Under the pieces are notes generated by a model, which made no database searches, was not told where the DNA came from, and was given only the letters and a program-made list of their open reading frames with translations. Positions 29,346 through 53,650 of a stretch of DNA of 64,000 nt are shown here, in pieces; position 1 is the stretch's first letter, and every line of letters begins with the position of its first letter. The translations under genes were made by a program, and so were the position numbers. The stretch covers positions 248,001-312,000 of the forward strand of contig NZ_JOIX01000001.1 of the NCBI RefSeq assembly GCF_000720175.1, given 5' to 3'. Origin of the DNA: Streptomyces sp. NRRL S-337 (GTDB taxonomy: Bacteria; Actinomycetota; Actinomycetes; Streptomycetales; Streptomycetaceae).

Positions 29346-30515
29346 ATGCCCTCGCACAGCCCCTCCCCCCGGCGGCGATCCGTACGGGTCTCCCTGCTGG
29401 CCGCCCTCGCCACCACCGTCGTCACCGGCAGCCTGGTCCTGGCCGGTCAGAGCGGTGATCCGACCACTCCGGCCGCAGCCACCGCTCCCGCGGCAGCCCT
29501 CGCCCCCGCCGCCCCGCACGCGGGGCAGTGGCAAGCGACCCCGGTGCCCGTCAAGAAGGGTGATCTGACCGCCGTCGCCGCACTGAGCGACAAGCAGGCC
29601 TGGGCAGTCGGCTACCGGCTCAAGAGCGCCACCTCGCTGGAGGCGATCGCACTGCGCTGGGACGGTAGCTCATGGACCCAGGAATCCACCCTCCCCGACA
29701 ACAGCTTCCCGCAAGCGCTCGCCGTCCGCTCGGCCACCGACATCTGGGCGGTGGGCAGCGCCTCCGCCCATTGGGACGGCACCAAGTGGACCGCGTACCA
29801 ACTGGCCAACGACCCCTCCGGCCACGTCGTCCCGGACGCCGTGGCAACCACCTCCGACGGGAAGGTGTGGACGGTGGGCCGGGCCATGGGCCGGTCGATC
29901 AAGGACGGCGTCCCGGCCATCCAGTCCTGGGACGGCAAGGCCTGGCACCGGCAGCCCTTGCCCGATGTCGGCAAGGGGGAACTCAGCGCCCTCACGGCGG
30001 TCGCGCCCGACGACATCTGGGCCGCGGGAGCCGCCTACGCCCCCGACGAGAAGTCCCAACAGTCCGCGCTGCTGCTGCACTTCGACGGCACCAGTTGGCG
30101 GCGTGTCACGGCGCCCGGCCCGCACACCACGCACAACTGGCTCGGCGCGATCACCGCCCTTTCGGCGGACGACATCTGGGCGGTGGGCGGGAGCACCACC
30201 GGCAGCACGGAGCGGCCGCTCGCCCTGCACTGGAACGGCAGCACCTGGACCACGGCCAAGACACCGGACGTGGCCGACGGCCGGCTCCGCGCCGTAGGCA
30301 GAACCGGCAACGGCGATCTGTGGGCCCTGGGCGGCAAGGGGGCAGCCCCCGTCGCCCTGCACTGGAACGACCAGCGCGACCAGTGGGAGAAGACCACTGC
30401 CCCGGACCTCGTCATCCGCAGCTCCACCACCGTGCCCCACAGCGCCGACCTGTGGGCCACCGGAATCTCCCCCCACGGCGACCTCATCCCGGCGATCACC
30501 CGCCTCAAGAACTGA
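29346..30515 (+). CDS. Secreted repeat protein, probable beta-propeller
   Basis: 389 residues. A signal peptide (RRRSVRVSLLAALATTVVTGSLVLA) is followed by an Ala/Pro-rich linker, then repeated units with the core D-I/L-W-A-V/L-G (AWAVGY, DIWAVGS, VWTVGR, DIWAAGA, DIWAVGG, DLWALGG, DLWATGI) each followed by an ALxWDG-S/T-W strand. At least seven repeats suggest a seven-bladed propeller. Function unknown. ATG at 29346 chosen because AAGGA is 6 nt ahead; an ATG at 29340 is too close. Confidence 0.78.
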   Translation: MPSHSPSPRRRSVRVSLLAALATTVVTGSLVLAGQSGDPTTPAAATAPAAALAPAAPHAGQWQATPVPVKKGDLTAVAALSDKQAWAVGYRLKSATSLEAIALRWDGSSWTQESTLPDNSFPQALAVRSATDIWAVGSASAHWDGTKWTAYQLANDPSGHVVPDAVATTSDGKVWTVGRAMGRSIKDGVPAIQSWDGKAWHRQPLPDVGKGELSALTAVAPDDIWAAGAAYAPDEKSQQSALLLHFDGTSWRRVTAPGPHTTHNWLGAITALSADDIWAVGGSTTGSTERPLALHWNGSTWTTAKTPDVADGRLRAVGRTGNGDLWALGGKGAAPVALHWNDQRDQWEKTTAPDLVIRSSTTVPHSADLWATGISPHGDLIPAITRLKN

Positions 30516-30801
30516 TCCACCGTCAGGCCGGCGCAAAAGCGGGGATTCCCTGCCCGAGGAAGCCCTCAAGAAGGCGTCAGCCGAGGCGGAAAAATGACTC
30601 AACTCCGCTCACAGCAAAACGGATTGGGTTCCTCCAAGGGGCCGACCCGCCGTCGACCAGCGGGTATGTTCCCCGCTCAGCTCCACCACACCCGGCAGCC
30701 GCCACCGCACCCGTAAAGAAATTCGATCATGGCGCGATTCTTCGGTGTTAGCTTGTGCCGAGCAGTCGGGTGACTGCCGCTTTATACCCATGGAGGCTGA
30801 T

Positions 30802-30936
30802 ATGGAAGAGCAGAACGAGCTGTCGACCGTGGAGCCGTACGCCGCCCCGATGCTGGTCGAGGTCGGTGAGTTCAACGAGGACACGCTGGGCTTCATCGGC
30901 TGGGGCAAGGACATCTTCGGCCACTACGGCGGCTGA
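30802..30936 (+). CDS. Lasso peptide precursor (anantin-like)
   Basis: 44 residues: a 29-residue leader and a 15-residue core. The leader carries the actinobacterial YxxPxLxxxGxFxxxT motif (Y13, P16, L18, G22, F24, T28), with Thr at the penultimate leader position. The predicted core is GFIGWGKDIFGHYGG, with Gly1 and Asp8 set for an eight-residue macrolactam. Anantin (known lasso peptide GFIGWGNDIFGHYSGDF) shares the ring and loop apart from Asn7 to Lys and a shorter, changed tail. GGAGG lies 5 nt before the ATG at 30802. It is followed by the cyclase, RRE and peptidase genes. Size and chemistry of the product are predictions. Confidence 0.93.
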   Translation: MEEQNELSTVEPYAAPMLVEVGEFNEDTLGFIGWGKDIFGHYGG

Positions 30937-31015
30937 CCGACCGTCACTGGCTGATCGACAGCCGGCTGACCATCTCACAGCTGGTTCGACAGCTGACTTT
31001 CAGGAGTAAGCACAG

Positions 31016-32893
31016 ATGACCGGTGCTGGGTTCGTGGTCCTGCCGGATGCGGCGTCCGCGGTGGAGGTTCGTGCGCAGGTGCCCTGGTCGGCGCCCCAGG
31101 TACTCTCGCACGCCTCCGGGCGTCCGTGGCTGGTGGGCACGTGGCTGCCTGGCGCGGTTCAGGTGGCCACGGCGGGCCCGGTACGGGTGGCGGTGATCGG
31201 GATCTGCCCGGTCACCGCCACGCGGTTGTCCGAACTCACCACCCGTGTCCGCACCCTCGCCGACATCGACGCCCTGGCCGCAGCACTCCCGGGCTCGTGC
31301 CACGTCATCGCCTCGGTCGACGGACAGGTCCGCGTACAAGGCAGCATCACCGGACTGCACCGGATCTTCCACACCGATGTCAACGGCCTGCCCGTCGCCG
31401 CCGACCGCGCCGATGTGCTGGCTGCGATGACCGGCGCCGGCATCGACGAACGTGCCTTGGCCGTACGCCTGGCCTGCGGCGGACTCGTTCCCCCGCCGCT
31501 AAGTGAGGCGCCCCTGTGGGCAGGCGTCTCCCCACTGCCGCCGGACCACTACCTGGTGCTGCAGGACAAGCAGGGCCGGCAAGCCCGTCAGGTCCGCTGG
31601 TGGCAGCCCCCCACCCCTGAACTCCCGCTCACCGCCGGCGCAACAGCCCTGCGCGAAGTGCTGGAGACCGCCCTGGCCGGCCGCGAGCCCGCCACGGGCC
31701 GGCTGAGCAGCGACCTGTCCGGCGGCATGGACTCCACCTCCCTGTGCTTCCTCGCCGCCCGCACCCATCCCGACCTGCTGACGTTCCGCTGGGGCGAGGC
31801 CGAGGCAGGCAACGACGACGCCGCCTTCGCCGCCCACTCCATCGACCACCTCGACCAGGCCGAGCACCTCGTCATACCCCCGGCCGACCTCCCGGCGCTC
31901 TTCACCGACCCGGCCACACCGAACGACACCGAAGAGCCCTACCCCTTCGTCCGCACCGCCGCGCGTACCCGCCACACCGCCCGGTTGCTCGCGGACCGCG
32001 GAGCGCAGCGCCATCTGGCCGGGCACGGCGGCGACGAGTTGTTCACCCCCTTCCCCGGCTACCTGCACCCCCTTCTGCGGCGCCGCCCCGTCACCGCGCT
32101 GAGGCACGTCCGCGGTTACGCGGCCCTGAAGCGCTGGCCGCTGCTGCACACCCTGGCCGCCCTGACCCGCCCCGGCAGCCAGGCATCGTGGTGGCACGCC
32201 CAGGCCGACCACCTCACCGACCCACCCTCGCGCAAGCGCCGCCCCAGCCTGGGCTGGGGCCTGTGGCCGCTGCGCGCCCCGGCCTGGGTCACCTCCGAGG
32301 CCATCGAGACCGCCCGCGCAAGCCTCCGCCACACCGCGGCCCACGCACAGCCGCTCTCCACCGACCTCGGTCAGCACCAGACCTTGCTCGCCGTACGCAC
32401 CGCCGCCCCCTGGTACCGCCTGCTGGCCCGCCCGTTCGCCGACGCCGGCGTCCAGCTCGACTCGCCGTTCTTCGACGACCGCGTCATCGAGGCCGTGCTA
32501 CGGGTCCGCACCCACGAACACGCCGGCCCCTGGCACTACAAACCCCTGCTCGCCCAGGCGATGCGCGGCATCGTCCCGGACACCGTGCTGGGCCGGTCCA
32601 CCAAGGGGGAGTTCAGCGAAGAGGCCAACACCGGCCTGCGCCGCAATCTCCCCGCCCTGCTGGAAATGTTCGACGATTCGGCCCTGGCCGCCCACGGCCT
32701 GATCGACCCGGCCGTACTGCGCACCCAACTGCTGGCCCCCCAGGCGACCAACGCCATGAACATCGCCCTGGAACCCCTCATCGGCTGCGAAACCTGGCTG
32801 CGCGCAGCCACCCGACCCACGCCCGTCCCAGCCACGCCCACGCAACCCACCCCCGCCCGAAGGACGACCGACGCCCATGAACCTGCACCCTGA
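31016..32893 (+). CDS. Lasso peptide cyclase (asparagine synthetase-like)
   Basis: 625 residues. The N-terminal third resembles a degenerate glutamine amidotransferase domain; the synthetase half has the PP-loop SGGMDS at 235-240, AGHGGDELFTPF and STKGEFSEE. It would adenylate the Asp8 side chain of the core and close the ring onto Gly1. ATG at 31016 with AGGAG 9 nt ahead, 80 nt after the precursor stop. Its last 17 nt overlap the RRE gene. This is the standard lasso C protein by size and order. Confidence 0.93.
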   Translation: MTGAGFVVLPDAASAVEVRAQVPWSAPQVLSHASGRPWLVGTWLPGAVQVATAGPVRVAVIGICPVTATRLSELTTRVRTLADIDALAAALPGSCHVIASVDGQVRVQGSITGLHRIFHTDVNGLPVAADRADVLAAMTGAGIDERALAVRLACGGLVPPPLSEAPLWAGVSPLPPDHYLVLQDKQGRQARQVRWWQPPTPELPLTAGATALREVLETALAGREPATGRLSSDLSGGMDSTSLCFLAARTHPDLLTFRWGEAEAGNDDAAFAAHSIDHLDQAEHLVIPPADLPALFTDPATPNDTEEPYPFVRTAARTRHTARLLADRGAQRHLAGHGGDELFTPFPGYLHPLLRRRPVTALRHVRGYAALKRWPLLHTLAALTRPGSQASWWHAQADHLTDPPSRKRRPSLGWGLWPLRAPAWVTSEAIETARASLRHTAAHAQPLSTDLGQHQTLLAVRTAAPWYRLLARPFADAGVQLDSPFFDDRVIEAVLRVRTHEHAGPWHYKPLLAQAMRGIVPDTVLGRSTKGEFSEEANTGLRRNLPALLEMFDDSALAAHGLIDPAVLRTQLLAPQATNAMNIALEPLIGCETWLRAATRPTPVPATPTQPTPARRTTDAHEPAP

Positions 32894-33128
32894 CGTGGTC
32901 TGCACCGACACCGACGACGGCACCGTGCTGCTCAACCAACGCACCGGCCGCTACTGGCAACTCAACACCACCGGTGCCCACGTCCTGCGCCAGCTCCTGG
33001 CCGGCTACACCCCTCACGACATCGCCGCCGACCTCGCCGCCCGGCACCACATCGACACCACCCGCGCCGAGCAGGACGTCACCGCGGTCCTCACCCAGCT
33101 GCGCACCGCGGACCTGGTGGCCGCGTGA
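32877..33128 (+). CDS. Lasso precursor recognition element (B1, PqqD-like)
   Basis: 83 residues. The PqqD-like wing-helix is seen in VCTDTDDGTVLLNQRTGRYWQLNTTGAHVLRQLLAGYTPHDIAADLAARHHID. The protein holds the leader peptide and presents it to the peptidase. It starts inside the cyclase gene (17-nt overlap), and its stop overlaps the peptidase start (GTGA). Standalone RREs are usual in actinobacterial lasso clusters. Confidence 0.92.
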   Translation: MNLHPDVVCTDTDDGTVLLNQRTGRYWQLNTTGAHVLRQLLAGYTPHDIAADLAARHHIDTTRAEQDVTAVLTQLRTADLVAA

Positions 33129-33553
33129 GTCTTCCCGTCGCCCTGTCCGAACGGCCCCGCCTGCCCCTGCACCGCCGCCCGGTCCCCCTCCTGGCCGTTG
33201 CCGCTGCCCGCCTGTTGGCGAAGGCCAAGCCGGCTCGGCTGCGCAGGATCCTGGAGTTCGCCCGACGCGGCGCCCACCCCGCCACCGCCGCCCAGGCCCT
33301 GGCCGCCCGCGAAGCGGTCGTCTCGGTCAGCCTGCGCTGCGCCGGCCAGGGCTGTCTGCAACGTTCCATCGCCACCGCCCTGCTCTGCCGCTTGCGCGGT
33401 GCCTGGCCCACCTGGTGCACCGGCGTGCGCACCCACCCCTTCGCCGCCCACGCCTGGGTCGAGGCCGAAGGCCGCCCCGTAGGCGAGCCCCACCCCAAGG
33501 GCCACTTCAAACCGCTGATCGCCGTCCCACCCCTTTCACCGGCAGGGAAGTAG
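33125..33553 (+). CDS. Lasso leader peptidase (B2, transglutaminase-like)
   Basis: 142 residues. Catalytic Cys77 in CAGQGCLQRSIATALLCRL and His109 in HPFAAHAWVEAEGRP match McjB-type cysteine proteases; where the third residue (Asp) is usual, this protein reads Glu121 (RPVGEP), so the triad is atypical. It should cut after Leu29 of the precursor, freeing Gly1 for ring closure. GTG start overlaps the RRE stop. Last gene of the cluster; the next gene is convergent. Confidence 0.9.
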   Translation: MSLPVALSERPRLPLHRRPVPLLAVAAARLLAKAKPARLRRILEFARRGAHPATAAQALAAREAVVSVSLRCAGQGCLQRSIATALLCRLRGAWPTWCTGVRTHPFAAHAWVEAEGRPVGEPHPKGHFKPLIAVPPLSPAGK

Positions 33554-33583
33554 CTGAAGAAAGGCACCGAGGACGCACCCGCC

Positions 33584-34759
33584 TCACCGGGTCAGGTGGG
33601 CGTTGAGCCGGGCGGCCTGGCGCGTCAGGTGGTTGCGCTCGGCGAGGTTGGGTGCCTGGTGGGCCGCCTCGGCGTACAGCCGTGCCGCCGTCGCCAGGTC
33701 GCCGTCGCGCTCGTGGAGGTACGCCGCCACCGCGGTGTGGCGGGGAATGGGGTGTCGTCTGCTCGAAGAGCTTGGGGAAGAGTCGTCCAGCTCCGCGAGC
33801 GCCGCCAGCCCGGCGCGTGGACCGTCGGCCTCGCCGACGGCGACCGCGCGGTTGAGGCGGACGACCGGGCTGTCGGTCAGGCGCGTGAGCTCGTCGTACC
33901 ACTCGACGATCTGCACCCAGTCGGTCTCCTCGGCGGTGGGCGCGTCGGCATGGAGGGCGGCGATGGCGGCCTGTGCCTGGAACTCGCCCAGCCGGTCGCG
34001 GGCGAGGGCCGTCTGCAGGATCGCGATGCCCTCGGCGATCGCCTTCGTGTCCCACCGGCCGCGGTCCTGCTCGGCGAGCGGCACCAGGCTGCCGTCCGGC
34101 GCGGTCCGGGCGGGGCGGCGGGCGTGGTGCAGCAGCATGAGGGCGAGCAGCCCCGCCACCTCGGGGTGGTCGACCTGCGCCGCGAGCTGCCGGGTGAGCC
34201 GGATGGCCTCGGCGGCGAGGTCGACGTCGCCGGAGTAGCCCTCGTTGAAGACCAGGTAGAGGACGCGCAGCACGGTGGCGACATCGCCCGGCTGGTCGAG
34301 GCGCACGCCGGCCACGGTGCGTTTGGCCCGGCTGATGCGCTGTGCCATGGTCGCCTCGGGCACCAGATAGGCCTGGGCGATCTGGCGGGTGGTGAGCCCG
34401 CCGACGGCGCGCAGCGTGAGCGCGACCGCGGACGACGGCGTCAGCGACGGGTGGGCGCACAGGAAGTAGAGCTGGAGCGTGTCGTCCACGGAGGGTGTGG
34501 GGCCGGGCAGCGGTTCCTCGTCCACCAGGTCCTCACGCCGGCGGCGGGCGGCGTCCGAGCGGGCCTGGTCGAGGAACTTGCGCCAGGCCACGGTGACCAG
34601 CCAGCCCTTCGGGTCCCGTGGAGGGTCGGCCGGCCAGACGCGGACCGCCTCGACGAGCGCTTCCTGCACGGCGTCCTCGGCCGCCGCGAAGTCGGCTCCG
34701 CGGCGGACGAGGATGGCGAGCACGCTCGGCGTGAGGCTCCGGAGCAGGGCCTCGTTCAT
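33584..34759 (-). CDS. ECF42-type RNA polymerase sigma factor with C-terminal extension
   Basis: 391 residues. Sigma-2 region (VLAILVRRGADFAAAEDAVQEALVEAVRVWP), sigma-4 (GLTTRQIAQAYLVPEATMAQRISRAKRTV), then a long helical DUF6596/TPR-like extension with LYLVFNEGYSGD and EADGPRAGLAALAEL. This arrangement defines ECF42, which is normally linked to a DGPF/YCII protein, here directly upstream. Insert SSPSSSSRRHPIPRH in the extension is unusual. A GTG at 34795 could add 12 residues. No anti-sigma factor is adjacent; the C-terminus is thought to control activity. Confidence 0.88.
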   Translation of the reverse strand: MNEALLRSLTPSVLAILVRRGADFAAAEDAVQEALVEAVRVWPADPPRDPKGWLVTVAWRKFLDQARSDAARRRREDLVDEEPLPGPTPSVDDTLQLYFLCAHPSLTPSSAVALTLRAVGGLTTRQIAQAYLVPEATMAQRISRAKRTVAGVRLDQPGDVATVLRVLYLVFNEGYSGDVDLAAEAIRLTRQLAAQVDHPEVAGLLALMLLHHARRPARTAPDGSLVPLAEQDRGRWDTKAIAEGIAILQTALARDRLGEFQAQAAIAALHADAPTAEETDWVQIVEWYDELTRLTDSPVVRLNRAVAVGEADGPRAGLAALAELDDSSPSSSSRRHPIPRHTAVAAYLHERDGDLATAARLYAEAAHQAPNLAERNHLTRQAARLNAHLTR

Positions 34760-34832
34760 CGGAGACACCGGGGGCGCCGGAGACTCCGGGGACACCTGAA
34801 AGACGCGTGAGACATCTGAGACACCTGAGAGG

Positions 34833-35240
34833 TCACTCCGTGATGGTGGGCGGGGCGGTCAGGAACGGGCGCACCTCAAGCCACTCGTGGATCGGCTCCC
34901 CGCCCGCCCCGGGGGCGGCCGACAGCTCCCCGGCCAGCTCGACGGCGCGCTCATAGCTGTCGACGTCGATCACCATCCAGCCGGCGATGAGGTCCTTGGT
35001 CTCGGCGAACGGGCCGTCGGTGACCGGCGGACGCCCCTCACCGTCGTACCGGACCCACGCGCCCTCAGGCGCGAGCGCCTGCCCGTCGACGAACTCGCCG
35101 GTCTTCTCGAGCCGGGCCGCGAAGTCCTGCATGTACTGCATGTGGGCCGAGACCTCCTCGGGCGTCCACTGGGCCATGGGCACGTCGTTGACCGGAGCCG
35201 GAGCGCCGCGGTAGTGCTTGAGCAGCAAGTACTTGGCCAT
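34833..35240 (-). CDS. YCII/DGPF-domain protein (ECF42 partner)
   Basis: 135 residues. MAKYLLLKHYRGAPAPVNDVP, EEVSAHMQYMQDFAARLEKTGEFVDGQAL, and the VTDGPFAETKDLIAGWMVIDVDS motif mark the DGPF family. These proteins are encoded with ECF42 sigma factors and are often their targets. Upstream of it a short run of T residues (35330-35340) is present in the non-coding gap. Role in the cell is unclear; may act as a small oxidoreductase or sensor. Confidence 0.88.
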   Translation of the reverse strand: MAKYLLLKHYRGAPAPVNDVPMAQWTPEEVSAHMQYMQDFAARLEKTGEFVDGQALAPEGAWVRYDGEGRPPVTDGPFAETKDLIAGWMVIDVDSYERAVELAGELSAAPGAGGEPIHEWLEVRPFLTAPPTITE

Positions 35241-35610: not shown

Positions 35611-35993
35611 TCCACTGAATTCGCCGCGAAGCACTCTCCAAGAGCTGAGCGGGTGGGTGCTGTTGGGTTCGCAGCCGCTACCGCTGGCTCTGTGTTCGCC
35701 TCGGGTCCGCAGTCGTTGGAATTCCGGGCCGGTGAACTGGCGCCCATCTTCGCCTCGTCCGCGTCGAGTTAGCACCTGATCCACATCTTCCGCCTTAAGC
35801 GATGACATGCGCAGGCCGGCGGTATATGGTTCGGCCACTGTCACCCAGGGTGTTGCTCTGGCCAATGGTTGACCGGTGGCCGGACGCTGCAATGCCCAGG
35901 GTGCTGTGCCCTACCCCCCTCATAGCTCTGCCCGCGTGCACCGGCCCCGGTCGTACCTGACCGGGGTCGGGCGCGCCGCAGAAAGGCATGCAC

Positions 35994-37724
35994 ATGTCCC
36001 GAATACGGGTCACCAGACCCGCCGCTCTGACCGCGCTGGCAGGCGTAGGAGCCTGTCTGGCAATCGTCGTCGTGCCGTCCGCCTTCGCGGGTACGACCAC
36101 TCCGGCCGGCAGCAGCTGCACCATCCGCCCCGCGGCGAAAGGCTCCGAGGCACCGCTGAGTTGTCTCGGCGTCACCGCTTCTTTCGACCACCTGCCTGCT
36201 GTCGGCGAGCAGGCCACCCTCACCGTGAAGGTCCAGGCACAGGCCCAGGTCAAGCACGCCGGACTGGCCCTCCAATTGCCGCCCTCGATCCGGATGACCG
36301 GCGAGGAATCCGGCTTCGCCGCACCCACAACGGACACCTTCGGCCAGCGCACCAGTCAGACGCTCGCCCTCACCCCCGGCACCCAGGCCCTCAAGCTCAA
36401 GGTCAAGGCCGTCGCCGCCGGACCCGCCCAGATCCAGGCGGACATCAGCGACATCGACCGTCCCGACCCGCGCCGCGCCGGGCACGACTCGTTGGAACTC
36501 ACCGTCGGGACGGCAAAGGGCTCCTCCGACAAGGGCGTCTCGGTCACCAAGGCCGACGCCGCCCCGGCCCACGGCCGCGGGCCCCGTGCCCGCAAGCCCC
36601 GCCCGGTCGCCCCCAAGGCCCCGGCCCCAGCTCCTGTCTCCGGCCGTGCCTCGGCTGCCTCGGCCCCGGCCTCCCCGCACGCGGCCGCCGCGGCCACCTC
36701 CAGCGCCCAGGTCTGCGTCAACGGCACCTTCCGCAACCGCTTCCAGTCCGCCGAGGGCGGCAGTTGGAACGGCAAGGCCAACCGGGACGAGCCGGTCAGC
36801 AACGTCAACATCACCCTGTGGGGCAGGCCGACCGCCAACAGCGGCACGCAGAAGCTCGCCACGGGGATGACCGGCAACGGCGACGGCAAGTTCAACCTCT
36901 GCTACACCCCGAGCACCTCCGCCATCTCCCAGGCGTGGGTGGAGTTCCAGACACAGGCCGGCCGCATGTGGTCGGTGGTCGACGGCAACGGCCGCCTGTA
37001 CTCCACCGCCACGTACTCGCTGAACAACATCTCGGGCAACACCAGCCTGGGCAACGTGTACGCCAACGACGGACAGAGTCGTGCCTGGCACGCCCTCGAC
37101 ACCCTCAACAAGCTGTGGTGGAACCGCGGTGCCACGACCAACTGCTGGACGAGCAGCCAGCAGGACGGCCACTGCACCCCGATCACCGTCCAGTGGTACC
37201 CCGGTTCCACCGACGGCACGTACTGGACCACCAACGACGACAAGATCCACCTGGCGGACAACGATCCCGACTCCGAGCACACCACCATCCACGAGGCGGG
37301 CCACGCCCTGATGGGCAAGCTCTACAAGAACTGGTGGCCGAACGTCAGCAACTGCTCGCCGCATTACGTCAATCGCACCTCCTCCACCAGCTGCGGCTGG
37401 ACCGAGGGCTTCGCCAACGCGGTGGCGTTCCACACCTTCAACGACACCACGTACTACTGGGGCAACGGCAGCTCCATGAACCTCGCCAATGACCGCTCCA
37501 CGAACGGCATCGACCCGGGCGACGCCTGCGAGGCCCGCGTTGCCACCGCGCTGGTCGACCTGTGGTCCCAGGTCGACGGTGGCTGGACGAAGAGCAACAC
37601 CATGATGTCCCGGACCTGGCAGTCCAGCTTCCGCGAGTACTTCGTCAACGACCGGCCCGACTACGGCCTGGACAGTGGCTCGACGGCCCGGAACATTCTC
37701 TACCGCCACACCATCCAGTACTGA
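35994..37724 (+). CDS. Secreted zinc metalloprotease (HEAGH)
   Basis: 576 residues. Signal peptide ([25 protein letters not shown]), an N-terminal domain of beta-type to residue 190, a Pro/Ala-rich linker near 190-235, and a C-terminal domain with the zincin motif HEAGH at 433-437 followed by the Trp/Asn-rich KLYKNWWPN and [15 protein letters not shown], where the third ligand may be Glu (WTEGFA) or a later His. Six or more Cys suggest disulfides. ATG at 35994 has AAAGG 8 nt ahead; 35988 is the alternative. Substrate unknown. Confidence 0.82.
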
Positions 37725-37796
37725 CCAGCACTGACGAGTCCTGACCAGTACCGATCCTGACTGCTGTCAGCTGGATGAGCCCCGTGGACCCACGGA

Positions 37797-37834
37797 CCCA
37801 TGGACCGGGCCGTACAGTCGGCCCGGTCCATGGG
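37797..37834. terminator. Perfect 16-bp hairpin after the metalloprotease
   Basis: Arms 37797-37812 (CCCATGGACCGGGCCG) and 37819-37834 are perfect complements with a 6-nt loop, 72 nt after the stop. There is no long T-run, as is common for Streptomyces terminators. The rest of 37725-38078 holds no gene. Confidence 0.7.
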
Positions 37835-38078
37835 CGTGTTCCCACTGAAGTACCCCGGTTGCGGGGGAGGGCGACGGCTCCAGGCGCCAGACACTTGGGG
37901 TTCCCACCCCCGCATCGGCCTGGCGTACCGACCCTCCTTCCGCCGTACGGCGGAGGCGCACCGGCCTGTGGTGCGATGTGGTGGTACGGGCGCGGACGGC
38001 ACGGTGGTGAGTGGCCGGGGATCCCCGGCCGGCGGACCCGGTGAGGGTTCGCCCCCGCCACTTCCGTTGGAGGAAGCC

Positions 38079-38708
38079 ATGCTCCACACCCGCGCCCGCA
38101 TGCGCCGCCCTGCCCTCGTCGCCGCCACGGCCCTCATCGTCGGTGCGGCGACCGCACTGACCCTGGGCACCTCGGGCGCGGCCACCGCGGTCGAAGCCGC
38201 CGCCGGAGCCCACGCCGTGGCCGGGCACCATGCTGCCCGGCACACCGTCGACGAACCACTGCTCAAGGGGTCGGCCAAGCTCAAGCGCGAGCCGGGCGAC
38301 AACGTCCACTTCACCATTGACGCCCACGGATTCGCTGACAAGGCACGCGGCACCTTCTACGTGAGTCACCACGTCGGCAAGCAGTGGGGCGGCTACTTCA
38401 AGGGCCGCATCGACTGCCTGGTGACCGGCGGCCCGGTCGCCGTCGCCACCGGCATCGTTTCCGAGTCGCACTTCCAGGGCGCACCAGGCATGCCGGACAT
38501 CGGCAACCTCAAGGGCAAGCGATTCGGCTTCACCGTGCTGGACGACGGCAAGAAGGACCGGCTGGGCTACAGCTGGGCCGTGGACGGCCTGCCGAAGAAC
38601 AGCGTCGGCAAGTGCTTGGGTTCCGCCCCCTTCGAGACCCTGGAGAAGGGGGACTACACGGTCCACCACTGGATGCCGCCGCGCAAGCCCGCCAAGCACG
38701 GAAAGTAA
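38079..38708 (+). CDS. Small secreted protein of unknown function
   Basis: 209 residues. Signal peptide (RMRRPALVAATALIVGAATALTLGTSGAATA), then a compact domain with VHFTIDAHGFADKARGTFYV, IDCLVTGGPVAVATGIVSES, KGKRFGFTVLDDGKKDRLGYSW. Two Cys may form one disulfide. The FxIDA...YVSH...GxIDCL pattern is common in short Streptomyces secreted proteins (Repetin-like) of unknown role. TTGGAGGAAG ribosome site before ATG 38079. Confidence 0.7.
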   Translation: MLHTRARMRRPALVAATALIVGAATALTLGTSGAATAVEAAAGAHAVAGHHAARHTVDEPLLKGSAKLKREPGDNVHFTIDAHGFADKARGTFYVSHHVGKQWGGYFKGRIDCLVTGGPVAVATGIVSESHFQGAPGMPDIGNLKGKRFGFTVLDDGKKDRLGYSWAVDGLPKNSVGKCLGSAPFETLEKGDYTVHHWMPPRKPAKHGK

Positions 38709-40117: not shown

Positions 40118-41102
40118 GGGCGGCCCCCTCCATGGTGGTGATCGACACGTGATCAGCGATCGGCTGGCGGTCATCGTATAGGCAGTTTTGCCATGGCCGT
40201 GCCAACCCGGCGGATAGGGCGGCGAGTTATCCTCATGGTGGTTGGTGAGAGGGGCGTTGCTGACGCGTCCAGAAATGCACGGTGGCGGCTTCGAGCCCCG
40301 TCCGTTGCCGGGCCTGTGCGACCCGCCTTTTCGCGCGGGCTCGTCTGCGCGGGTAACGGTCTCTCGGCGCCGGGGAGTATGCCCTGAGGTGAGCGGCGCC
40401 GAGTGCCGGTACGGGGCGCGGGCGGGAGAAGAGCCCTGGTGCGGCCGGTGGAAGTCGTCAGTTCCCGGCAACTCGGCACCCTCGTAGACTCGTCGCAGCA
40501 GCAAAGGCGCGAGCCGGCAGAGGGCCGGCGGGAGTGGCTGTTCCGTCGCCCCGGCGCGAGGGCTTCCGGTGCGTCTTCCCCGGTCAGGAGGCCTCTTCCG
40601 GAAGGGCTGATTCACGCCACCGTCGGATGGCGGCCCTCGGGCCCGGAATTGCGACTGCGTTGCCCGCCGTTTTCACTGAGTGTTTTTGTTACGCGTCAGT
40701 GTGTGATCGCTGGACCTCGCCGACCGCCCGCTGCGGGCTCACGGATTCCCCGAGAAGGGGCAGTTTCAGGGGTGGTCGGCCATGGATGCGCGACTGTGTG
40801 TGACGCGGCGAATGCGGACGGAAAGGTATCGACAATTACCCGGACCGCAGCGGATGTTGGAAATTGCGCCGCGGAGGGTCGAGATCCGTGAGGCATAAGC
40901 TACCTTTCCCTACGGTGAGTTGAGCGCAGTTCCGCTGGGCCGGTATACAAGGCCCGGCACGAAAGGCTTGTGCTTATCCCGTGCTCACCGTATTGATATT
41001 GGGCGAGTTGCCGCACGGCCATCCCCCACGTTCCGAGAGGACGCTGTTCTGCACGCTGTTGCCCGCGCGCCCCGTCCGCACCGCACCCGACGCCGTGCCG
41101 AC
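40118..41102. other. Intergenic region, about 1 kb, no gene supported
   Basis: Short open frames occur on both strands but have no family-like sequence, no ribosome site and mixed codon use. The part at 40660-40720 is AT-richer (a run of T after CACTGAG) and could hold the promoter for the divergent units. No RNA gene was recognised by eye. Confidence 0.5.
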
Positions 41103-43457
41103 ATGCCTCTGCTCGGAGGCGTCCGCCCACCGATCGCCGCACTGCTCTGCGCCCTGCTGGCAGTTGCCGGGTTCACCGCACTCGGTCTCGGTACCGTTCA
41201 CGAACAGGACGTTCCGCAGGCCTTGCGCGACGCCGAACGCCGGATCGCCGAGGACGCCGCCGACTCGGTCGGGACCGCCATCGACGCAAGAGCCGCGGCA
41301 GTGCGCCACTCCGCGGCGTCGGAAGCGCCCGCCGGCAGCCGCACTCCGGCGGCACTTCTGCGCTCCCTTCTCCCGACCGGGCACCCTGCGGGAGGCGGTG
41401 TGCTGCTCGACCCGCACACCGGCAGACCGCTGGCGGCCAGCGGCGAAACGGTGCCGCTGACCGGGGTGGATGTCCCGGCACTGGTGCGGTCCGGTGGCAC
41501 GAAAATCGCGCCCCGCCTGGTGCTTTCGAGCCGTGGCGAACCGCGGCTGTTGCTCTTCGCCCGGGTGGCCGTATCCGCCCCCGGCGCCAAGCAGGACGAG
41601 AACAACGACCAGACAGGCGACCTGAGAGCGGATCAGAACGACGAGGAGAACGACCTCCTCCTCGTCGTCTCGGAGAAGGTCGCTGCTCCAGCGGTTTACG
41701 GAGTGGGGCGCACCGGTCAACTGGTGGACCGGAACGGAAAGGTGCTCGCCACCGCCGCCCCCCCAGGGACGGTGCCGGCGCTCCGTACTGACCACCATGA
41801 TCTGCCGGCCGCTGCGGCACATACCGCGAACGCCGCGAATGCCGATCTCCGCACCGACGACGTCTCGGGCAGCGTGCTCGGCGACGGTCACGACGGCCTG
41901 CGCGAGGTCACGGGATGGGCATCGGTCGCCGCGGCGGACAGCAAGGGCGACGCCTCCGGCCTGGGGCTGACCGTCCTCACGCTCAGGGAGGTGCCCCCGG
42001 CGAAGGCGGGCGCCGACCATACGTGGTTCGCCCTCGTTGCCGCGGGTGCGCTGGTACTGATCGCCGTGCTGGTCACCCTGGTGCTGTGGGGCGGCATGCA
42101 GCGTGCGCTGCTGCGGCTGCACCTGTCTGCTGCCCGACTGGCCAGGGCGGCCGGTCACCTGCCCATGGCGCGGGAGGAGTTGGCGCGACCGGTGCCGACC
42201 GTCGCGTTCGGGGAGTCCGGCAGGGTCAGCAGGGCGCTGGAGTCGATACGTCGCCAACTGCTCGGCGAAGCGGGACCGGAGCCCGTGCGGCCGGTGCGCC
42301 GCCGCCCCGGTGTCCGGGCTCTGGTCCTCGTCTGCGCGCTCGTGATCGCCGCGTGGGGCATACCGCTGCTGTTCCTGCTCAACCGTGCACCGGCGGCCAA
42401 GGCCGTACCGGCAGCCGCCGTCGCCGACCAGCAGGCACGCACCGAGGCCGCCGCCGACCGGGTGCGGCGGTCCCTCGGCCGGAGCTGTACCGACCTCGCG
42501 GCGGCGGCGTCAGCCCTCTCCGGCGCGCCCCGCGAGCGGGCGACGGAGGTGCTGCGGCGCGCACACGCCGACCACCCCACGTTCCGGTCGCTGTATGTCC
42601 TGGACCGCACCGGAGCCATCGTGCTCCGGGTGGGCAAGCAGCCCCTGCGCACCCTTGACCACGCGCCGACCGGCGAGGGAATCGCCCAGGTCAACACGTC
42701 GGGGCCGATCCCCGCGATCGCCGCCTACGCTCAGGTCCCGGCGGCCCGGAAGGCCAATGGCGCCAAGGGCGCCAAGGGCGCCAAGGGCGCCGCCCCGGCC
42801 GTCGTCGTCGCCGAGATCGGCGTGAACGCGCTGAACTCCCTGGTCGCACGCGAGGGGCTCGGCAGCGTGTGGCTGACCGACGAGCACCACCGGGTGCTCG
42901 CGGCGAGCGTCGGCTTTCAAGCCTTCCAGGCTCTTCCCCACCGGGGCCTCACCCGACTGGTGGCCAGGACCGAGGCGGCACCCGGAAGCACGGGCACCCC
43001 GGCATCGGCCGTACTGCGCGCGGGGGCGGCCCCTGGCGAGGGTCCGTCGGTCGCGGCCGCGGCGCCACTGGCACAGAAGGGGCCGATCGCCGGACTCGGC
43101 TGGCGGGTGGTCTCCGCCGAGCCCGCCGCAGCGCTCAAACTGGCGGCGTTCCAACTGCAGGCGCGCACCATGCTGGCCGGTCTGCTCGCGCTGTCCGTGG
43201 GCATCGCCTGCCTGGGCTGGCTGCACATCGTGGTCGTCAGGCCGCTGCGCGCCGTCACCAGATGCGCGGAGCAACTGGCCGGCGGTGACCGTCGCACCGT
43301 GTTGTACCCGGTCCACCACGACGAGTGCGGCTCGGTCACGCGCAGTCTGGAACTACTCCGGCAGGCGCTGGTGGACCGGGACCGCGGTGGCGGAAGTGCA
43401 TCTGTGCCCTCTGTCCCTGCCCCCTCGTTCCGGCGCGGCGGCCCGCCGCAGCAGTGA
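41103..43457 (+). CDS. Membrane protein with two tandem sensor-HAMP modules, no output domain
   Basis: 784 residues. Helix near residues 10-30, an extracytoplasmic part to about 300, helix (TWFALVAAGALVLIAVLVTLVLW), a cytoplasmic HAMP-like helix pair (GESGRVSRALESIRRQL), then again helix (RALVLVCALVIAAWGIPLLFLL), a second extracytoplasmic Cache-like part with a GAKGAKGAKGA run, a fourth helix and a C-terminal HAMP (VVRPLRAVTRCAEQLAGGDRRTVLY). No kinase, cyclase or methyl-accepting part. Start uncertain: in-frame TTG codons at 40920 and 40968 exist, and ATG 41103 lacks a clear ribosome site. 13 nt before pgsB. Confidence 0.7.
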   Translation: MPLLGGVRPPIAALLCALLAVAGFTALGLGTVHEQDVPQALRDAERRIAEDAADSVGTAIDARAAAVRHSAASEAPAGSRTPAALLRSLLPTGHPAGGGVLLDPHTGRPLAASGETVPLTGVDVPALVRSGGTKIAPRLVLSSRGEPRLLLFARVAVSAPGAKQDENNDQTGDLRADQNDEENDLLLVVSEKVAAPAVYGVGRTGQLVDRNGKVLATAAPPGTVPALRTDHHDLPAAAAHTANAANADLRTDDVSGSVLGDGHDGLREVTGWASVAAADSKGDASGLGLTVLTLREVPPAKAGADHTWFALVAAGALVLIAVLVTLVLWGGMQRALLRLHLSAARLARAAGHLPMAREELARPVPTVAFGESGRVSRALESIRRQLLGEAGPEPVRPVRRRPGVRALVLVCALVIAAWGIPLLFLLNRAPAAKAVPAAAVADQQARTEAAADRVRRSLGRSCTDLAAAASALSGAPRERATEVLRRAHADHPTFRSLYVLDRTGAIVLRVGKQPLRTLDHAPTGEGIAQVNTSGPIPAIAAYAQVPAARKANGAKGAKGAKGAAPAVVVAEIGVNALNSLVAREGLGSVWLTDEHHRVLAASVGFQAFQALPHRGLTRLVARTEAAPGSTGTPASAVLRAGAAPGEGPSVAAAAPLAQKGPIAGLGWRVVSAEPAAALKLAAFQLQARTMLAGLLALSVGIACLGWLHIVVVRPLRAVTRCAEQLAGGDRRTVLYPVHHDECGSVTRSLELLRQALVDRDRGGGSASVPSVPAPSFRRGGPPQQ

Positions 43458-43470
43458 AGGACCAACTGAC

Positions 43471-44835
43471 GTGCTTTTCCTCTATGTTGTGCTGCTGTTG
43501 AGCTGTGCCGTGCTGCTGGTCGCCGGCGTGCTGGAGCAGCGGCGTCACTACGCCGCGCTGGCGCAGGTACCCACTCGGGTGCTGGTCAACGGCATCCGCG
43601 GCAAGAGCTCGATCACCCGGCTGTGCGCGGGGGCGCTGCGCGGCGGCGGACTGGTCACCGTCGCCAAGACCACGGGCACCGCTGCCCGGTTCATCCACCC
43701 GGATGCCACCGAGGAGCCGGTGTACCGCAAGTTGGGCATCGCCAACGTCGTCGAGCAGATCGGCATCGTCCGGCGCGCGGCGGCATACCGGCCGGACGCT
43801 CTGGTGATCGAGTGCATGGCGGTGATGCCTGCACTTCAGGAGATCAACCAGGAGAAGCTGATCCGTTCCACCATCGGCGTGCTGTGCAACGTGCGTGAGG
43901 ACCATCTCGCCGAGATGGGGCCGACGTTGGACGATGTGGCCCGCTCGCTGTCCCGGTCGATGCCGGTCGGAGGGGTCTGTGTCACCGCCGAACAGGAGCG
44001 GCTGCACATCCTCAAGGAGGAGGCGGACAAACGGGGCTGCCGCCTGATCGTGGTGGACCCGGAGACGGTCACGGATGAGGAGCTGCGCGGCTTCAGTTGG
44101 TTCACGTTCAAGGAGAACGTCGCCATCGCGCTGGCCGTGGCCGCACTGCTCGGCGTGGACCGGGCCACCGCACTGCGCGGCATGTGGGAGGCGCCGCCGG
44201 ACCCCGGTGTGCTCTCCGTCGAGCGCTACCGCACACCGGACGGCAAACGGCTGCGCTTCGCCAATGTCTTCGCCGCCAACGACCCCGCCTCGACGTTGAT
44301 GAACGTCCGTCAGCTGGAGGAACTCGGTGCGATCCGCCGCCCGCTGAACGTGGTCATCAACTGCCGACCGGACCGGATCGAACGCAATGGGCAGATGGGA
44401 GCGATCATCCCGGACCTGGACCCGGAGACGGTCCTGCTCATCGGGCATCCGACCAAGAGTGCCCGCGACGGCATTCCGCCGGGCTGGTCGTCGGGGCGGG
44501 TGGTCGACCTGGGCGGCGACCGGCGTGACGCACAGGAGCTGACGCGCGCCATCCTCGCCGAACTGGGCCCGGATTCCTCGCTGGTGGCCATCGGCAACAT
44601 CCACGGCCAGGGCGAATTGTTCCTGGAGCACCTCGGCAAGCTGCCCGCTGACGACGTCGACGAGCCGCTTCCGGTCGCGCCCCCGCCCGAGCCGCAGCCG
44701 TACCGCTGGGTGGCCTCGCTGAACCGCCCCAGGTCCGGCGCGCACCTCCCGAGCCCAAGGTCCGGCGCGCACCTCCCGAGCCCCGCCTCCGCCCACGCCG
44801 ACGCCCTGTCCCGGCCGACAAGGAACTCCCTGTGA
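43471..44835 (+). CDS. pgsB: PgsB/CapB poly-gamma-glutamate synthase
   Basis: 454 residues. N-terminal membrane helix (LFLYVVLLLSCAVLLVAGVLE) and the ATP-binding loop VLVNGIRGKSSITRL (GIRGKSS at 41-47), then KTTGTAARF, VECMAVMPALQEINQEKLI, NVREDHLAEMGPT and HGQGELF, all typical of PgsB amide ligases, which join glutamate through its gamma-carboxyl. Longer than Bacillus PgsB (about 390) by a C-terminal Pro-rich tail containing a duplicated RSGAHLPSP. GTG start with AAGGA ahead. Overlaps pgsC (GTGA). Confidence 0.88.
   Translation: MLFLYVVLLLSCAVLLVAGVLEQRRHYAALAQVPTRVLVNGIRGKSSITRLCAGALRGGGLVTVAKTTGTAARFIHPDATEEPVYRKLGIANVVEQIGIVRRAAAYRPDALVIECMAVMPALQEINQEKLIRSTIGVLCNVREDHLAEMGPTLDDVARSLSRSMPVGGVCVTAEQERLHILKEEADKRGCRLIVVDPETVTDEELRGFSWFTFKENVAIALAVAALLGVDRATALRGMWEAPPDPGVLSVERYRTPDGKRLRFANVFAANDPASTLMNVRQLEELGAIRRPLNVVINCRPDRIERNGQMGAIIPDLDPETVLLIGHPTKSARDGIPPGWSSGRVVDLGGDRRDAQELTRAILAELGPDSSLVAIGNIHGQGELFLEHLGKLPADDVDEPLPVAPPPEPQPYRWVASLNRPRSGAHLPSPRSGAHLPSPASAHADALSRPTRNSL
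44731..44784 (+). repeat. 27-bp tandem duplication in the pgsB tail
   Basis: Two copies, 44731-44757 and 44758-44784, differ only at the last base. They encode RSGAHLPSP twice near the C-terminus of PgsB, in frame, so the protein stays open. Confidence 0.9.
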
Positions 44836-45314
44836 TCCCCGTCAACGTCACTCCGCAGACCATCGCGCTGGGGATAGCCCTCGGACTGGTCTTCTCGCTG
44901 GTCTGCTATCTGACCACCAACCTCTCTCCCGGCGGCATGATCACCCCCGGCTGGCTGGCGCTGACCCTCGTCACCGATGTCGTCCGGGCCGCCATGGTGA
45001 TCGGCGTCACCGCGCTCACCTTCCTCGCGACCAAGCTCCTTCAGCGCCATGTGATCCTTTACGGGAAGCGACTGTTCGCCGCCGTGGTGCTGTCCGCGGT
45101 GCTGCTCCAGACCACGGTGCTGCTCGCGCTCCAGCACGAGTTCCCGCTCCTTTACACCGCCCAGACCCTGGGCTTCATCGTGCCCGGCCTCATCGCGTAT
45201 CAGTTGGTCCGCCAACCGCTGGCCGCCACCGTGATCTCCACCACGGCGGTGACCCTCAGCACGTATGTGGTGCTCGTCGCCGGGTTGCTGCTGGGGGCGC
45301 TGCCCGTCGGCTGA
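44832..45314 (+). CDS. pgsC: PgsC/CapC membrane protein
   Basis: 160 residues with about five membrane helices (ALGIALGLVFSLVCYLTTN, the short LSPGGMITPGWLAL motif that is diagnostic of PgsC, LVTDVVRAAMVIGVTALTFL, AAVVLSAVLLQTTVLLA, and C-terminal). PgsC is the membrane partner of PgsB for polymer synthesis and export. GTG start coupled to pgsB. No PgsA, PgsE or PgdS gene follows. Confidence 0.9.
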   Translation: MIPVNVTPQTIALGIALGLVFSLVCYLTTNLSPGGMITPGWLALTLVTDVVRAAMVIGVTALTFLATKLLQRHVILYGKRLFAAVVLSAVLLQTTVLLALQHEFPLLYTAQTLGFIVPGLIAYQLVRQPLAATVISTTAVTLSTYVVLVAGLLLGALPVG

Positions 45315-45374
45315 GCTCGCCGCACCGCCGCCCTCGAAGCCGGTGAACGAACTCGCATCCCAGCCCGACCTCCC

Positions 45375-47288
45375 ATGAGAGACCCCGACATGGCCACCAC
45401 CGCCCTCGCCCGGGACCCCGCCGGCCGCCGCCGACGCGCCACCCGGCGCCGTCAATTGCCCCTTGCTGAAGGGGAGTTGCCCGCCCTTCTGCTCATCCTG
45501 GCCACCGCCGCGGTGCTCTACGCCTGGGGCATCGACCGTGCCGGGGTGCACCCGTACTACAGCGCGGCCGCGCGGTCGATGGCGGCGAACTGGCACGCCT
45601 TCATCTTCGGCGGGCTCGACCCGGGCGGCTCCATCACCGTGGACAAGATCCCCGGTGCGTTGTGGCCGCAGGCGCTCTCCGTCATGCTCTTCGGACCGCA
45701 CAACTGGGCAGTGGTGCTGCCGCAGGTCGTTGAGGGCGTACTGGCCGTCTGGGTGCTGTACAGGATCGTCCGTGCCTGGGCAGGCCCGTGGGCGGGGCTG
45801 CTCGCCGCGCTGGTTCTCACGCTCACCCCGGTCACCGTCGTACTCGACCGGCACACCATCCCCGACACCCTGCTCGTCCTGCTGCTGCTCCTCGCCGCGG
45901 GATCGCTGCAGAAGGCCGTCACCACCGGGAAGCTGCTGCCGCTGATCGTCTGCGGAACATGGGTGGGACTGGCCTTCCAGGCCAAGATGCTCCAGGCATG
46001 GCTCGTCCTGCCGGTCTTCGCCGCGGTGTACCAGATGGCAGCGCCCGGCTCCCGATGGAACCGGGCCCGGCGGCTGCTGCTCGCCGGGGCCACCGCACTC
46101 CTCGTCTCCTGTGCCTGGCTGCTGCTGGTGTGGGCGACCCCCGCAGCGGACCGTCCCTACATCGACGGGACCACCAACAACAACCCCTTCACCCTGGTCT
46201 TCGGCTACAACGGGCTGAGCCGCTTCGGCCACGACCCGAACGCGCTGGGCGCCGTCGCCGGCACCGCGGCCAGCCGCACCACCGACAACACCGGTTGGAC
46301 CATGCTGGTCAACGAGAGCGTGGGCCCGCAGATCGCCTGGCTCCTGCCGCTCGCCGTACTGGCCTTGGTGCTGGGTGTGTGGTGGCGCACCGGACAGCCG
46401 CGTACCGACGGGCCGCGGACGGGGTTCCTGCTCTGGGGAGGCTGGCTGGTGATGCACGTCGTGGTCTTCAGCAACTCCAACGGCAATCACGGCTACTACA
46501 CCGCCGTGGTGGCCCCGGCCCTCGCCGCGCTGACCGGTGGCGGAGTCGCCCTCTTCTGGGCCGAGTACCGCGCAGGTGGCCGACGTCGAGCGGCGCTGCC
46601 CCTCGCCATCGGGCTCACGGCGCTGTGGGCGGTGGCATTGGAAGGCCCGCACAGCGACTTTGCGCCCTGGCTGCTGCCGATGGTGCTGATGCTCGGTCTG
46701 TGCGGGACCGTCGGCCTGTGCACCCGCGGACCACGCACCCCACGACGGGCGGTGCAGGGTGCCCTGGCAGCCTCCCTGGCGTCCGTACTGCTCGCCCCGG
46801 CGGTCTGGGCCACCTCCAGCCTGGACCCGCGCTACGCCGGCTCACCGCTGTCGCCGCTGGCCGGACCGGTGGGACCCGACTACCGCGACCGGCCCCACCA
46901 TCGGGCCACGTTCCGGCGCTACCCCTTGAGCACGCCGTCCGCACGGGACGCCGCGCTGCTGAAGTACCTCTCCGCGCACCATTCCGGGGAGAAGTACCTG
47001 CTCGCCACCCAAGCCGCCTACGGCGCCGAGCCCCTGCTGCGCGCCACCTCCCAACCCATCCTCGTGATGGGCGGCTTCACCGGCCTGACCCCCTACCCGG
47101 CCGCACGACAGCTCAGTGACCTGGTCGCCACCCACCAACTGCGCTACGCCCTGCTGACCAGGCGCCGCCCGTCCACCCCGGCATCGGCCTGGGTAAAGAA
47201 GAACTGCACCCCCCTCCGCCCACGCACCTACGGCCGAACCTCGGACGGAAGCTTCACCCTCTACGACTGCCTTCGGCCAGCCCGCTGA
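45375..47288 (+). CDS. GT39-type (ArnT/PMT-like) membrane glycosyltransferase
   Basis: 637 residues with ten or more membrane helices. The N-terminal region has RAGVHPYYSAAARSMAANWHAFIFGGLDPGGSITVDKIPG, close to actinobacterial polyprenyl-phosphate sugar transferases. Such enzymes move a sugar from a lipid carrier to a polymer or protein outside the membrane. Two starts are possible, 45375 and 45390, with no strong ribosome site. It lies 60 nt after pgsC and may modify its product or envelope partners; that link is inference. Confidence 0.82.
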   Translation: MRDPDMATTALARDPAGRRRRATRRRQLPLAEGELPALLLILATAAVLYAWGIDRAGVHPYYSAAARSMAANWHAFIFGGLDPGGSITVDKIPGALWPQALSVMLFGPHNWAVVLPQVVEGVLAVWVLYRIVRAWAGPWAGLLAALVLTLTPVTVVLDRHTIPDTLLVLLLLLAAGSLQKAVTTGKLLPLIVCGTWVGLAFQAKMLQAWLVLPVFAAVYQMAAPGSRWNRARRLLLAGATALLVSCAWLLLVWATPAADRPYIDGTTNNNPFTLVFGYNGLSRFGHDPNALGAVAGTAASRTTDNTGWTMLVNESVGPQIAWLLPLAVLALVLGVWWRTGQPRTDGPRTGFLLWGGWLVMHVVVFSNSNGNHGYYTAVVAPALAALTGGGVALFWAEYRAGGRRRAALPLAIGLTALWAVALEGPHSDFAPWLLPMVLMLGLCGTVGLCTRGPRTPRRAVQGALAASLASVLLAPAVWATSSLDPRYAGSPLSPLAGPVGPDYRDRPHHRATFRRYPLSTPSARDAALLKYLSAHHSGEKYLLATQAAYGAEPLLRATSQPILVMGGFTGLTPYPAARQLSDLVATHQLRYALLTRRRPSTPASAWVKKNCTPLRPRTYGRTSDGSFTLYDCLRPAR

Positions 47289-52205: not shown

Positions 52206-52217
52206 CCGGCATGGATA

Positions 52218-52256
52218 TCACATACGCTCTGCATGTCAGATTCACTCTGTATGTGA
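52218..52256. promoter_or_regulatory. Candidate TetR operator in the amine oxidase promoter
   Basis: TCACATAC (52218-52225) and GTATGTGA (52249-52256) are perfect 8-bp inverted arms 23 nt apart. Between them, CTCTGCATGT and CTCTGTATGT repeat directly. The pattern could hold two overlapping repressor sites, placed between the TetR start and the oxidase start. Confidence 0.5.
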
Positions 52257-52276
52257 GTTCTGGGTGTGAGGTGACG

Positions 52277-53650
52277 ATGGGAAAGTCGGTGGACCTCATG
52301 GATGTCGTGGATGTCGTGGTCGTCGGGGCGGGAGAGGCGGGCCTGGTGGCCGCTCGCGACCTGGTTCAGGGCAGGGCGGAGGTGCTGGTCCTGGAGGCGC
52401 GTGACCGGGTCGGTGGCCGGCTTCTGAACGACGAGTTGCCCGGCGGCGCCCCCATCGAGGTGGGCGGACAGTGGGTCGGCCCCGGGCAGGACCACGTGAT
52501 GGCGCTGATCAAGGAGCTGGGCCTGCGCACCTACCCCACCCATGCCGACGGCGAGCACATCGCCGAGATGGGCTCCTACCGCTCCCGGTACACGGGCCGA
52601 ATACCCCGGCTGAACCCGCTGGTGCTGGCAGACATCGGACAAGTCCAATACCGCCTGGACCGGCTCGCGCGCCACGTCGCCGCCACCGATCCGTGGCGGG
52701 TACCCCGCGCCGAGGAACTGGACACCCAGACCTTCGGCACCTGGCTTCGCAAAACCGCGCACACCGCAGGCGGGCGGGCTTTCTTCCGGCTGGTCACCGA
52801 GGGAGTGTTCTCCGCAGAACCCGAGGACATGTCCGCGCTGTGGGCCGCCTTCTACGTGGGCGGTGCCGGCGGCCTCGACGCACTGATCAACACCGTCGGC
52901 GGGGCGCAACAGGACCGAGTGGTCGGCGGGACACAGCGCATCGCGTTGAGGATGGCGGAGGAACTCGGTGACCGGATCGTCCTCGACGCGCCGGTGACCG
53001 ACATCGCCTGGCGGAACTCGGGCGTCCACGTCGTCACACGCAGCGGCCGGACCGTGCGCGCCCGCCGGGCCGTGGTCGCGGTGCCGCCACCGCTCGCCGC
53101 GCGCATCCGTTTCACCCCGGGCCTTCCGGGCGACCGTGATCAGCTCGTCCAGCGGATGCCGATGGGCAGGGTCATCAAGGTCAACGTGGCTTACGACGAG
53201 CCGTTTTGGCGCCGTGCGGGCCTGAGCGGCCAGGCGAACAGCACCGATCGCTCCCTGGGTACGGTGTTCGACAACACGCCGTTCGGCGGCTCTCCCGGCG
53301 TGCTTGTCGGCTTCCTCGAAGGCCGGCACGCCGATACCGGCGCACGTATGGGCTTAGACGAGCGGCGCGCTCAGGTGATCAAGGACCTCGTCGGCTATTT
53401 CGGCCCTCGGGCCCGTAACCCGGTCGCCTACATCGAACGCGACTGGGCGGAAGAGGAGTACAGCCGCGGATGCTATGGAGCGTTCGCCGTGCCCGGCACC
53501 CTCACCCGCTTCGGTCCGGCCCTGCGCAAGCCGGTCGGCCCGCTGCACTGGGCGGGTACGGAAACCGCCACGAAGTGGGCGGGCTACATGGACGGAGCCG
53601 CTGAATCAGGCCACCGCGTCGCGGTCGAGATCCTCCCTGAACTCTCCTGA
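52277..53650 (+). CDS. Flavin-containing amine oxidase
   Basis: 457 residues. FAD motif VVVVGAGEAGLVAARDLVQ, EARDRVGGRLLNDELPGGAPIEVGGQWVGPGQD, YIERDWAEEEYSRGCYGAF, and LHWAGTETATKWAGYMDGAAESGHRVAVEI are the standard monoamine oxidase/putrescine oxidase signatures. It oxidises a primary amine with FAD. ATG 52277 with GAGG ahead. Control by the divergent TetR is likely. Confidence 0.9.
   Translation: MGKSVDLMDVVDVVVVGAGEAGLVAARDLVQGRAEVLVLEARDRVGGRLLNDELPGGAPIEVGGQWVGPGQDHVMALIKELGLRTYPTHADGEHIAEMGSYRSRYTGRIPRLNPLVLADIGQVQYRLDRLARHVAATDPWRVPRAEELDTQTFGTWLRKTAHTAGGRAFFRLVTEGVFSAEPEDMSALWAAFYVGGAGGLDALINTVGGAQQDRVVGGTQRIALRMAEELGDRIVLDAPVTDIAWRNSGVHVVTRSGRTVRARRAVVAVPPPLAARIRFTPGLPGDRDQLVQRMPMGRVIKVNVAYDEPFWRRAGLSGQANSTDRSLGTVFDNTPFGGSPGVLVGFLEGRHADTGARMGLDERRAQVIKDLVGYFGPRARNPVAYIERDWAEEEYSRGCYGAFAVPGTLTRFGPALRKPVGPLHWAGTETATKWAGYMDGAAESGHRVAVEILPELS

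Follow-up and report, generated by a model that had tools for sequence, protein, structure and literature searches.

A lasso peptide cassette with the ulleungdin core in a Streptomyces genome

The window analysed here, i.e., a stretch of 64,000 nucleotides from a Streptomyces genome of 9,057,844 bases (G000, contig C1), contains an intact four-gene lasso peptide cassette without internal stops (30802-33553, plus strand; Table 1). On the basis of its sequence and of reports from other strains, this cassette almost certainly represents the ulleungdin (uld) cluster in another Streptomyces, and it is predicted to yield ulleungdin, a class II lasso peptide of 15 residues. The four genes, and a core identical to that of ulleungdin, were observed directly in our analysis. 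Ulleungdin is said to be the product of the uld cluster of Streptomyces sp. KCB13F003, reportedly described by Son et al. in 2018, and a 2024 paper, to go by its title, reportedly deals with nonthreaded ulleungdin isomers.

Table 1. Features of the lasso peptide cassette (positions in the window)
Feature	Positions	Strand	Remarks
Likely ribosome-binding site	30792..30801	+	GGAGG at 30792-30796, read from sequence
Precursor gene, 44 aa plus stop	30802..30936	+	ATG at 30802, stop ends at 30936
Leader, 29 aa, MEEQNELSTVEPYAAPMLVEVGEFNEDTL	30802..30888	+	Putative cleavage site
Core GFIGWGKDIFGHYGG, 15 residues, identical to ulleungdin	30889..30933	+	Predicted ring Gly1-Asp8
Precursor-cyclase gap, 79 bases, predicted stem-loops	30937..31015	+	
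Lasso cyclase (asparagine synthetase-like), 625 aa	31016..32893	+	Pfam match; best NCBIfam model below cut-off
PqqD-type leader recognition protein, 83 aa	32877..33128	+	NCBIfam match above cut-off
Leader peptidase (transglutaminase-like), 142 aa	33125..33553	+	NCBIfam match above cut-off

The original prediction of a lasso cluster in this place was exact in its coordinates, and the four genes were confirmed by their reading frames as well as by family models. The start of the precursor gene is supported by the GGAGG immediately 5' of it and by the DNA similarity of the window to distant relatives (loci L021, L022 and L041), which begins at 30792. The leader carries YxxPxLxxxGxF, and Thr is the second last residue before the predicted cleavage site; the motif that had been proposed for it is YxxPxLxxxGxFxxxT. 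The tight overlap proposed for the genes holds for the cyclase and recognition protein (17 bases) and for the recognition protein and peptidase (4 bases), but the precursor gene stands apart from the cyclase gene.

The precursor leader (NCBIfam NF033521, lasso_leader_L3; 31.4 bits, cut-off 19), the recognition protein (lasso_PqqD_Strm; 108.5 bits, cut-off 70) and the peptidase (lasso_biosyn_B2; 119.3 bits, cut-off 33) all score above their NCBIfam cut-offs, which argues that the cluster is not a chance call. The cyclase matches the Pfam family Asn_synthase (PF00733; 139.7 bits, cut-off 21), while its best NCBIfam model, the albusnodin/ikarugamycin macrolactam cyclase macrolact_Ik_Al (NF033561), scores 269, i.e., below the cut-off of 300. 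The cassette thus combines the features by which actinobacterial lasso clusters are recognized, i.e., a lasso leader motif, an asparagine synthetase-like cyclase, and a PqqD-type protein that is separate from the transglutaminase-like peptidase (NF033530 and NF033537, both above cut-off). Moreover, the peptidase Cys of GQ(G/A)CLQRS and His of AHAWVE are kept in all 10 of the 10 sequences aligned. None of the four genes of the cassette encodes a transporter, and a search of solved structures gave a single, non-significant match (TfuA leader, E = 0.52).

All 15 residues of the core are identical to those of ulleungdin, for which GFIGWGKDIFGHYGG is given in Table 1 of a 2025 review that cites Son et al. 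2018 (PMC12427821). The core had originally been taken for an undescribed variant of anantin; as it is listed in that table as a compound already described, the claim of novelty was overturned, and the product is not new, whatever its target. Judging from the core, the window thus adds a further genome to those with the ulleungdin core. According to a report on Streptomyces sp. ID38640, the core predicted from the lasso cluster of that strain is the same as ulleungdin, and the strain yields a compound with [M+2H]2+ of 796.8835 (796.8859 calculated) and consistent MS fragmentation (PMC7955054). The [M+2H]2+ that we computed is 796.8859 for the window core minus one water and 805.8911 for the linear core, so the calculated mass of the cyclized core agrees with the compound reported from that other strain. 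In addition, a cluster that is 100% similar to that of ulleungdin is reported from S. explomaris (PMC12163732), a species described in its abstract as close to S. nigrescens.

By analogy with the known lasso pathway and with published reports on the compound, the recognition protein would bind the leader, the peptidase would cut the precursor after Leu29, and the cyclase would activate Asp8 and join it to the amine of Gly1, so that the ring would close around the threaded tail. We considered two other readings of the cassette. One is that its product is a new analogue of anantin, from which the core indeed differs at residue 7 and in the tail; given a core identical to a published compound, we regard this as extremely unlikely. 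Lys7 is, moreover, not special to the line of the window, as it also occurs in genome G016 (with the tail GGGF) and in protein P0003 (with SGGF). The other reading, i.e., that an intact cluster stays silent, or that additional trimming or modification leaves the strain with a product other than ulleungdin, is less remote yet still improbable. It would fit with the mere traces of ulleungdin listed for wild-type ID38640 in Table 3 of PMC7955054 and with a sigma-70 consensus scan of 30500-33700 that gave no promoter match, a scan limited to that promoter type. Against it, the conserved cassette includes no tailoring gene, DNA similarity to L021 and L022 breaks off close to the borders of the four-gene set, the neighbour genes examined are not common to the other loci, and acetylated ulleungdin was not detected according to a review (PMC9266682). 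According to the same review, the published cluster also has an acetyltransferase gene, located downstream of B2 and apparently unrelated to ulleungdin (PMC9266682). Tailoring by an acetyltransferase was discarded as a candidate, as the neighbour genes searched on either side of the cassette gave no acetyltransferase family. A terminator scan of 30500-33700 yielded one match as compared to a mean of 1.0 in shuffles. Two points were counted against the assignment to ulleungdin, i.e., the differing neighbourhood (no acetyltransferase after B2) and the cyclase score of 269, where the best NCBIfam model requires 300.

The gene next downstream of the cassette (33584-34795, minus strand) encodes a protein with sigma-70 regions 2 and 4 and DUF6596, and is adjoined by a YCII-domain gene (34833-35240). 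Farther on, two open frames of 578 and 302 aa (35988-38708) gave no match in Pfam or in PADLOC at E 0.001, and a row of genes at 40920-47288, consisting of a gene without Pfam match, a Mur-ligase match below cut-off, a CapC-like capsule gene and a mannosyltransferase-like gene, is possibly a poly-gamma-glutamate type locus. A search of eight window proteins against defence families gave a single match, between the amine oxidase at 52211-53650 and a model that is named as a desaturase (E = 2e-19).

The distribution of the core was investigated by searching three overlapping draws of genomes with a precursor as query, that of the window for the genus and family draws and that of L025 for the order draw. 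Cores with GFIGWG and DIFGHY were found in 4 of 392 (genus), 8 of 394 (family) and 8 of 391 genomes (order), own genome included. Any precursor match at E 0.001 was obtained in 18, 21 and 13 genomes, respectively, of which 14, 13 and 5 had other cores; none of the cores read at L037, L038, L040, L052 and L054 is that of the window. Comparison with anantin-family precursors, as the original prediction had suggested, revealed four natural tails. Among the eight genomes and S. nigrescens, GG is found in the genome of the window, S. nigrescens, G064 and G365, GGGF in G016, SGGF in G690, G647 and G527, and SGDF, with the exact anantin core, in G539. In these nine, Lys7 goes with GG and GGGF, and Asn7 with SGGF and SGDF. 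A large protein collection provided four homologues among five candidates, three of them with a core of the anantin/ulleungdin type (P0001 with the tail GG, P0002 with Asn7 and SGGF, and P0003 with Lys7 and SGGF); as P0003 combines Lys7 with SGGF, residue 7 is not strictly tied to the tail. A scan of a collection of named genomes with the cyclase found two loci, the nearer of which is in Streptomyces nigrescens HEK616 (90% protein identity), where much of the neighbourhood of the window is kept at about 90-94% DNA identity. The precursor protein is 100% identical in G064 and S. nigrescens HEK616. Location on a known plasmid was rejected, as 72,556 plasmid records, from which records very near the own genome may be left out, gave no match.

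Other lasso precursors were also seen in these searches. Two adjacent precursors with the related cores GRNSWGFDSSMLCRW... and GRVSWGFDSSMLCRW... are present in each of two genomes (L012 and L013), and a further lasso-type precursor, with the core GFTGYHWDGWAGFFGW, is encoded in S. nigrescens HEK616 (L057) in addition to the first. The core of L039 is exactly RES-701-1 as given in PMC12427821, that of L054 is a one-residue variant of it, and six genomes of another genus (L029-L034) have shorter cores such as GGWGTVPDWFFNMNW.

The relationships of the cassettes were analysed in a tree based on the cyclase, the recognition protein and the peptidase of ten loci, i.e., nine with this core and L020 as outgroup. 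The cyclase of the window shares 70-90% identity with its counterparts at the other eight loci that have an anantin/ulleungdin core. The five cassettes for Phe-ended 17-mers group together with a bootstrap of 100, and the four for GG-tailed 15-mers group less firmly (73; 0.965 for the same split in FastTree), in a ten-sequence tree with one outgroup whose core does not align in the tail. Flanks were compared over 20001-46000 of the window and 12.6 to 19.9 kb of the other loci. DNA similarity among the five 17-mer loci extends well beyond the cassette, which puts all five at a single place in the genome. The four GG cassettes occupy three places, one of which is shared by the window and S. nigrescens; among the matches listed, those between the window, L021 and L022 are confined to a stretch that runs approximately from the start of the precursor gene to the end of the peptidase gene, and none of the listed pieces of more than 100 bases at E 1e-10 joins the three GG places outside the cassette. 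The cassette is followed by the sigma factor gene in the window, and has as neighbours a MerR regulator and an FAD oxidoreductase at L021 and a short-chain dehydrogenase and a HEPN-domain gene at L022. Our reading is that the GG cassette may have moved between places; the same pattern would result if other copies had been lost from a larger set in the ancestor. It is tempting to go further and to see anantin and ulleungdin as two lines of one cassette, with the Phe-ended 17-mers fixed at one place, the GG line mobile and reduced to the ribosome-binding site and four genes, and tail length marking a change of role, but we hold this view to be doubtful. If it were true, the GG line would move as a bare cassette and would thus depend on whichever promoter lies upstream. 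The spread of the two lines over differing places is, overall, a small evolutionary point.

The gap between precursor and cyclase genes measures 80 bases in S. nigrescens (L019, 7921-8000), 35 in L021 and 33 in L022, as compared to 79 in the window. Folding z values for the gap were -2.2 in the window, -3.5 in L019, -0.2 in L021, -1.1 in L022 and 0.0 in L042. The folded gap may tune expression of the enzymes relative to the precursor. In one stem of the gap, the window and S. nigrescens (L019) differ by a change from G-C to A-U that affects both sides.

With regard to the receptor of anantin, the mentions shown in the searched literature that names both ulleungdin and natriuretic activity concern anantin or anantin B1/B2. 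The RODEO paper is said to deal with anantin B1/B2. Full-text searches for the whole core and for GFIGWG, limited to the literature searched, found no text beyond PMC12427821.

The main value of these data lies in dereplication, as a known compound need not be chased as new and a further likely producer can be named. Moreover, the tails GG, GGGF, SGGF and SGDF on nearly the same ring and loop represent a ready set of homologues for relating tail length to threading and receptor binding.

Among known systems, the nearest NCBIfam model of the window cyclase is that of the albusnodin/ikarugamycin-type cyclases (NF033561, score below cut-off); unlike the albusnodin type, the window has no acetyltransferase family among the neighbour genes searched. 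Compared to the uld cluster, the window has the same core, but B2 is followed by a sigma factor gene on the opposite strand and not by an acetyltransferase gene, so that its neighbourhood is unlike the published one. The core of the window is not the anantin core, which is given as GFIGWGNDIFGHYSGDF in Table 1 of PMC12427821, and the window thus holds a homologue. Residues 1-6 and 8-13 are identical in the two, as expected for the anantin-like core first proposed, whereas anantin has Asn7 and the tail SGDF where the window core has Lys7 and GG, differences that had likewise been noted correctly. The exact anantin core is found in a homologous four-gene cassette (L042), the cyclase of which is 72% identical to that of the window, and in the ten-locus tree the anantin cassette and that of the window fall into different groups.
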